64,000 nucleotides of DNA from NCBI GenBank assembly GCA_022766605.1, contig JALEOH010000008.1, forward strand, positions 62,001-126,000, in the 5' to 3' direction. The notes under the pieces are model-generated. The model saw only the letters and a program-made list of their open reading frames with translations. It was not told where the DNA came from and searched no databases. The position numbers and the translations under genes are program-made. The DNA comes from Ezakiella sp. Lineage in GTDB: Bacteria > Bacillota > Clostridia > Tissierellales > Peptoniphilaceae. This document shows, one piece after another, positions 49,383-51,369 of the stretch; position 1 is the first letter of the stretch, and every line of letters begins with the position of its first letter.

Positions 49383-49615
49383 GCAAATGGGGCATATTCT
49401 CAGAGCAAAACACATGCTTAAAGCACAAAAATCAATAGTAACTTAAAAAGCATCAAAAAAATATGTAAACTAAAAACTTACACCAATTTCCTTTCATCTT
49501 CCCATATTTAATTTAAAACAATTTTTCAAAACAGTGACCATTTTATGATATAAAATTTATGCGTAACAATGCTCGAAGAAGTCGCAATCACGAAATGTTT
49601 TTTATAATTTAATTC

Positions 49616-49651
49616 GGGGCTAAAAGACAAGTAGTTCGCGATTTTAGCCCC
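49616..49651 (-). terminator. terminator immediately after the full-length arsM frame
   Basis: Perfect 10-bp inverted repeat GGGGCTAAAA / TTTTAGCCCC with a 16-nt loop. It begins 3 nt after the TAA at 49655, that is at the end of the reading frame continued through the in-frame UGA, supporting the extended frame as the functional gene. Confidence 0.7.
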
Positions 49652-49654
49652 AAA

Positions 49655-50386
49655 TTATGGTTTGACGGCAAGTATTTTCCCCCTCTTAATATACCTCTCC
49701 ATCCCCTCATGTCCCCATTTGTTCAGGTATTCGGGGGTGAGATCTTCCCGAACGACGAGATAGGGATCAAAACCACATTCTTTTAAAATCTGTTCCAAGC
49801 TAACTGCTGTGATGCTGCCGCCTACTCAGGTAGCGATCATATGCGGATCTTCTTTTATTTCTTGTGGAAGTGGATTGATTTGAATTATGTCCGAAATTGA
49901 GAGTCTTCCACCGGGTTTTAGTATTCTAAAGATTTCACTATATACTTTCTTTTTATCCTCTAAAAGATTTATTACGCAGTTGGAAATGACGACGGTACAA
50001 GACTCGTCGGGAAGGTTGATATCGTCGATTTCCGATAATATAAATTCAGTGTTATTAAAACCCCTTTTTGTTGCAATCTCGCGTGCTTTTTCAACCATTT
50101 CAGGCAAATTATCTATTCCTATAGCCTTGCCATTTGTCAATATTTTTGCAGCCTTAAAGACGTCGATGCCTTTACCACTGCCGAGGTCAACTAATATATC
50201 ATCGGGCTTTAAATTGGCATTCTCGGTGGGATTACCACATCCTAGTCCTAAATTGCCATCCTCGATGTCCTCTAAGCTATATCCAAGCGACAATGCAACA
50301 GCGATCTCCTTTTCTCCATCTGTTGAAATGCCATCGTTTTTAGCTATATTTTTATAAAAATCTGCTACATTCTTTCTTCTATCCAT
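49655..50386 (-). CDS. arsM: arsenite methyltransferase, candidate selenoprotein (in-frame UGA)
   Basis: SAM-dependent ArsM-like enzyme. Motif I is LVDLGSGKGIDVFKAA (64-79) and ILKPGGRLSISDI follows near 155. ArsM uses three conserved arsenic-binding Cys. Here C50 (LGCGNP) and C137 (ISNCVINL) are present, and codon 187, expected to be the third Cys in ATC-VGG, is TGA (49826-49828). The frame stays open for 56 further codons with ArsM-like sequence (VGGSITAVSLEQILKECGF) to TAA. Read through as selenocysteine the product is 243 residues. Otherwise a single T/C-to-A change would make it a nonsense pseudogene. ATG at 50386 has TGGAGGAG upstream. Confidence 0.8.
49794..49812 (-). promoter_or_regulatory. 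candidate bacterial SECIS hairpin of arsM
   Basis: On the mRNA, 20 nt after the UGA, an AGC/GCU upper stem carries an AGUUA loop (49801-49805) with G in the second loop position; a lower UC/GA pair and a small internal loop extend it. The stem is weak on its own. The loop sequence and distance match the much stronger hairpin after the arsS UGA. Confidence 0.4.
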
Positions 50387-50526: not shown

Positions 50527-50883
50527 ATGAAAAGGTCTTTATCCATCTTGATTATTGCCTTGATGCTAATACTTACTGTATTACCACTAGAGGCAAAGGC
50601 AAGCAAAGAAGAGTCATTTAAACTCGAGCTTAAATTTGAGGCTGGAGAATTCATTCCAACAAAGCTTGACTATGTAGGCAAAGAAAAAGCTGGTAAACTC
50701 ACATTGATAAGTGCAACTAAAGAGGCGGAATACTTTATTGCAAGCTATGAAGGCTCTTTAGATGAAAAGGGTGAAAACTACAACAAAGTTGAAGTTAAAA
50801 CAGTAGGAGAAAATTCTCGCATCATAGTTAATGACGATGATTTAGCAATAAACGGCAATATCGTTATTGATAAGAGAAAGTAA
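50527..50883 (+). CDS. small exported protein, paralogue 1
   Basis: 118-residue protein with a signal peptide (MKRSLSILIIALMLILTVLP, cleavage likely near LEAKA). The mature part has EAGEFIPTKLDYV and GKLTLISATKEAEYFIASYEG, which align loosely with the next gene. The last 34 residues, YNKVEVKTVGENSRIIVNDD onward, are identical to it but for one residue. No known domain recognised. The ATG at 50527 has AGGAGGTG upstream; the frame extends 20 codons further without a site. Confidence 0.75.
   Translation: MKRSLSILIIALMLILTVLPLEAKASKEESFKLELKFEAGEFIPTKLDYVGKEKAGKLTLISATKEAEYFIASYEGSLDEKGENYNKVEVKTVGENSRIIVNDDDLAINGNIVIDKRK
50776..50883 (+). repeat. 108-bp 3' coding repeat, copy 1
   Basis: Matches 51262-51369 at 105 of 108 positions by eye, covering the C-terminal codons and stop of the small exported protein gene, while the upstream halves of the two genes are clearly diverged. 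Confidence 0.9.
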
Positions 50884-50979: not shown

Positions 50980-51369
50980 ATGAAGAAGAGCATTGCGATT
51001 TTATTGGCAGTCTTAATGCTAACATTAAGCACATTACCTATAATCGCTAAAGAAGGAGACAGACCCAATGGTCCGGGTCCAAGCAATGGCAGAAGGTGGG
51101 AAACTTTCAAGGTAATCTATGATATCGGTTCATATATACCAACTTACTATGAATATCTTAGCAAGGACTGGTATGGAACATTGAATCTTGTACGAACAAT
51201 TGAAGGTACCGATGTTATACAAGCTTTCTATGAAGGCTGGGTTTACCAAAGACAAGCTAATAACTACAACAAAGTTGAAGTTAAAACGGTAGGAGAAAAT
51301 TCTCGCATCATAGTTAATGACGATGATTTAGCAATAAACGGCAATATCGTTATTGATATGAGAAAATAA
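50980..51369 (+). CDS. small exported protein, paralogue 2
   Basis: 129-residue protein with a signal peptide (MKKSIAILLAVLMLTLSTLP, cleavage near IIAKE). The mature N-terminal part is Gly/Pro/Asn-rich (DRPNGPGPSNG), followed by IYDIGSYIPTYYEYL and GTLNLVRTIEGTDVIQAFYEG, similar in pattern to paralogue 1 but diverged. The C-terminal 34 residues are identical to that protein except one Lys/Met change. Function unknown. ATG at 50980 with AAAGGAGA upstream. Confidence 0.75.
   Translation: MKKSIAILLAVLMLTLSTLPIIAKEGDRPNGPGPSNGRRWETFKVIYDIGSYIPTYYEYLSKDWYGTLNLVRTIEGTDVIQAFYEGWVYQRQANNYNKVEVKTVGENSRIIVNDDDLAINGNIVIDMRK
51262..51369 (+). repeat. 108-bp 3' coding repeat, copy 2
   Basis: Second copy of the segment at 50776-50883, same reading frame, ending at the stop codon. 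Three single-base differences were counted. Confidence 0.9.

Follow-up and report, generated by a model that had tools for sequence, protein, structure and literature searches.

A short ArsM-like methyltransferase gene of Ezakiella sp. with an in-frame UGA, very probably read as selenocysteine, at the third metalloid-binding cysteine position

Within the analysed 64,000-nt stretch of Ezakiella sp. DNA (the window), one gene on the minus strand very probably encodes a selenoprotein. It is best explained as a SAM-dependent methyltransferase of the ArsM family in which UGA codon 187 is read as selenocysteine (Sec) by the organism's own SelA, SelB, SelC and SelD, so that the third metalloid-binding cysteine is replaced. 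The gene and its three putative metalloid-binding codons are located as follows.

49655..50386, minus strand: putative selenoprotein gene for an ArsM-family methyltransferase, 243 codons and a TAA stop (translation, family and structure matches)
50237..50239, minus strand: Cys50 codon in a GCGNP motif, equivalent to CmArsM Cys72, kept in 27/27 family homologues
49976..49978, minus strand: Cys137 codon in an ISNCVINL motif, equivalent to CmArsM Cys174, kept in 27/27 family homologues
49826..49828, minus strand: UGA codon 187, very probably read as Sec, equivalent to CmArsM Cys224 (homologue columns and 4kw7 alignment)

Translation of the minus strand gave a frame of 243 residues from the ATG at 50386, with a GGAGG upstream of it, to the TAA at 49657-49655. 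It is interrupted by a single TGA at codon 187 (49828-49826), which is followed by 56 sense codons; the coordinates and counts of the initial annotation, which had described this continuation, were correct. The mechanical ORF list stops the frame at the TGA. Homology was nevertheless full-length past this codon, as seen both in the translation and when it was aligned with proteins of solved structure. Between close relatives, differences were dominated by third codon positions equally before and after the UGA.

The best NCBIfam match of the product was the PRK11873 arsenite methyltransferase (NF008823) with an E-value of 3.8e-64 and 216.8 bits. Although this is still the best family match, it does not reach the curated cut-off of 263, so the product is called ArsM-like rather than a formal member of NF008823. 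The Pfam match was Methyltransf_31. The best matches among solved structures in the PDB were the arsenite/arsenic methyltransferases 5evj, 4kw7 and 4fr0. Counted along the alignment, C50, C137 and U187 correspond to chain residues 72, 174 and 224 of 4kw7. Cys72, Cys174 and Cys224 are the three arsenic-binding cysteines of CmArsM, and these positions appear in the product as Cys, Cys and Sec. This agrees with the earlier claim that two signature cysteines are intact and that the UGA falls at the position of the third. The product is most likely a short ArsM-type methyltransferase with a predicted Cys-Cys-Sec metalloid site.

The UGA is strongly conserved. Of 130 genomes from the family, 27 (counting the source genome) had a full-length close homologue; apart from the source copy, these were 39-78% identical to the query. 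A scan of genome contigs with this protein as the single query gave no relatives. All 27 contained exactly one internal stop, which was always TGA and always in the column of codon 187, with the context [AG][TS]-U-[VI][GA]G. Another 28 loci, some from the class at large and some longer ArsMs within the family, had TGA (9) or Cys (19) in this column and nothing else. The requested alignment with ArsM homologues therefore gave Cys at position 187 in those without Sec. In a maximum-likelihood tree, all Sec rows were found on one side of a branch with a support of 83/91, recovered in 78% of the bootstrap trees, so that one change between Cys and Sec is enough.

Among the other ArsM-like matches, one at G046:C1:990171-990668 lies on the minus strand, is 37% identical and has one internal TGA; it is a second copy, since its genome also has the orthologue. 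Another, at G020:C1:398000-398656 on the plus strand, contains one TAA and is possibly a decayed copy.

The source genome carries the complete set of selenocysteine genes. selD, selA and selB adjoin one another on contig C20, selA and selB scoring above their family cut-offs, while tRNA-Sec (selC) was found on contig C22 above the Rfam gathering score. The absence of selB or selC had been named as a finding that would speak against Sec; both are present, as are selA and selD. selD itself has an in-frame UGA (SG-U-AAK), and the 1.33-Mb genome contains two glycine reductase genes, each with an in-frame UGA:

G000 C20:81210-82247 and C18:4053-5093: grdB copies with the Sec motif ST-U-GTC

These UGAs, in selD and in the two grdB copies, show that the genome makes use of Sec decoding. 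Across the family, selB was present in 26/27 genomes with a TGA-ArsM compared to 22/103 of the others (Fisher p about 4e-13, with phylogeny ignored). The sole TGA-ArsM genome without selB, G063, is 76% complete.

Bacterial SECIS elements are loosely conserved.

49789..49825, minus strand: site directly 3' of the UGA where a bacterial SECIS is expected; signal weak in the source copy (fold z)

In the source copy, the 48 nt from the UGA folded no better than shuffled sequences (z 0.04). Over the 27 copies, the 45 nt after the UGA had a mean z of -1.13, while 306 windows elsewhere in these genes gave a mean of -0.14 (sd 1.09). This family-wide excess of folding is suggestive, given that the copies are not independent of one another and that the shuffles preserve only single-base composition. 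At both grdB sites of the source genome, a clear hairpin lies about 22 nt past the UGA and has GGU in its loop; a similar hairpin with GGA or GGC was observed in several ArsM relatives. A stem with a small loop that contains G occurs some 20-25 nt past the UGA in roughly half of the relatives. When a common hairpin register was sought over the 27 copies, the source copy did not fit this 20-25 nt register; by eye, no more than a 3-bp AGC/GCU stem enclosing AGUUA can be drawn for it at that place. The highest-scoring pairing of the family was not read as a SECIS because it lies further downstream in AT-rich codons. An Rfam search of the 64-kb window gave no match.

A truncating nonsense mutation, which would leave a pseudogene with an enzyme of 186 residues, would be in line with the end of the mechanical ORF at the TGA and with the lack of a strong SECIS in the source copy. 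It has practically no probability, since all 27 homologues, as little as 39% identical, share this TGA and contain no other stop, and it is ruled out by this conservation. The 3' part of the gene is under constraint, homologues have Cys in the column, and the Sec machinery is present. The initial annotation had already considered a random nonsense mutation unlikely, and the scattered stops and frameshifts that it expected in close relatives of a decaying gene were absent; a single shared TGA was found instead. Decoding of the UGA as Trp or another residue by a code change or suppression is just as improbable: beyond the open frame itself nothing was found in its favour, while the column is Cys in the homologues without Sec and selA, selB, selC and selD are all present. 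A code change was likewise rejected on the basis of conservation.

In the reading as a selenoprotein, UGA codon 187 would be translated as Sec by the SelA, SelB, SelC and SelD of the genome, and Sec would substitute for the last of the three conserved cysteines that bind the metalloid. If the enzyme works as CmArsM does, C50, C137 and U187 would bind trivalent arsenic, and SAM would supply the methyl group. The selenolate could then act as an arsenic ligand, enter a selenenylsulfide that has to be reduced before the next turnover, or both. As the initial annotation proposed, it may also alter arsenic binding and product release. Arsenic as the substrate is suggested by ligand conservation and family membership. 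The genomic context gives it no support, as the arsenite efflux gene acr3 was not found in the source genome, and a sample of ten proteins encoded next to the gene in nine related loci contained no recognised arsenic gene product. Both observations, together with a score below the cut-off of the ArsM model, would fit an ArsM-fold selenoprotein methyltransferase acting on a substrate other than arsenite, either another metalloid or a thiol or selenol compound. Such a substrate is rather unlikely, given that all three arsenic-ligand positions of CmArsM are kept as Cys, Cys and Sec and that the top PDB matches are arsenite/arsenic methyltransferases.

The Sec copies also differ at the N-terminus. 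Any Cys ahead of the C50 position is lacking in 22/27 of them, in contrast to the clusters of N-terminal Cys found in most Cys-type homologues; this association of Sec with N-terminal Cys loss is confounded with a single clade. It is a speculative proposal with a rather small chance of being right that, in a short Sec-ArsM lineage with Sec fixed and the N-terminal Cys (CmArsM Cys44 or the Cys clusters) mostly lost, Sec may take over a redox-relay role via a selenenylsulfide. If true, the Sec relay would mean a catalytic cycle unlike that of Cys-type ArsMs.

The 3' end of the gene was also inspected.

49610..49657, minus strand: inverted repeat that overlaps the TAA stop; may mark the transcript end but has no U-tract (repeat and terminator scans)

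The repeat has a perfect core of 10 bp (49616-49625 / 49642-49651) within 16-nt arms matching at 94%, and a loop of 16 nt. The minus strand continues past the stem-loop with an A-rich stretch and no T-run. The consensus terminator scan, which admits loops of 3-8 only, lists none there. The stem-loop is real, but its 16-nt loop and the A-rich stretch in place of a T-run set it apart from canonical intrinsic terminators. Of the "perfect terminator" described 3 nt from the end of the coding sequence, the distance and the perfect 10-bp core were confirmed; the U-tract is absent and "perfect" was overstated.

On the plus strand, two adjoining small secreted-looking proteins are encoded at 50528-50883 and 50980-51369. 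Their C-terminal ends (NYNKVEVKTVGENSRIIVNDDDLAINGNIVID.RK) are near-identical and the remainder differs, which by sequence points to a partial tandem duplication or conversion.

Ordinary gene callers end the enzyme at the UGA, and the third metal ligand is lost; Sec-ArsMs of small-genome bacteria of this kind are therefore likely to be missed or mis-annotated. The split between Sec and Cys inside one family makes the effect of selenium on arsenic methylation directly testable.

A family of Sec-containing arsenite methyltransferases is already known, of which this gene is a further short and somewhat divergent member. The literature thereby answers the question, raised in the initial annotation, of whether a selenocysteine ArsM has been characterised: such enzymes are a listed family. 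Arsenite S-adenosylmethyltransferase was listed as a selenoprotein in 2008 (PMC2398784), and is also listed in PMC5029168 (41 selenoproteins in 39 organisms) and PMC9312934. Table 1 of PMC13188914 (2026) groups arsenite methyltransferase (UxxG, NF008823) with the "experimentally verified" selenoproteins and refers to Fomenko et al. 2007. The NF008823 / PRK11873 selenoprotein shares with the gene product the ArsM fold, one Sec in a UxxG motif (U-V-G-G in this gene), two more conserved Cys and a short form that lacks a long C-terminal domain (the model is 272 long). The product differs in score, with 216.8 against the cut-off of 263, in a comparison with the model, whose representative is WP_011987699.1. 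The NCBIfam fusion selenoproteins ArsM_DUF2284_UU (NF041536) and ArsM_AhpD_UU (NF041537) likewise have an ArsM domain with UxxG, but they are longer and contain two or three Sec, and the gene product scored far below their cut-offs. With the Cys-type CmArsM (4kw7, 4fr0) it has the core in common, Cys72/174/224 corresponding to C50/C137/U187. It differs from CmArsM in the third ligand, predicted to be Sec, in its length of 243 aa compared to 377-383, and in having no equivalent of CmArsM Cys44.
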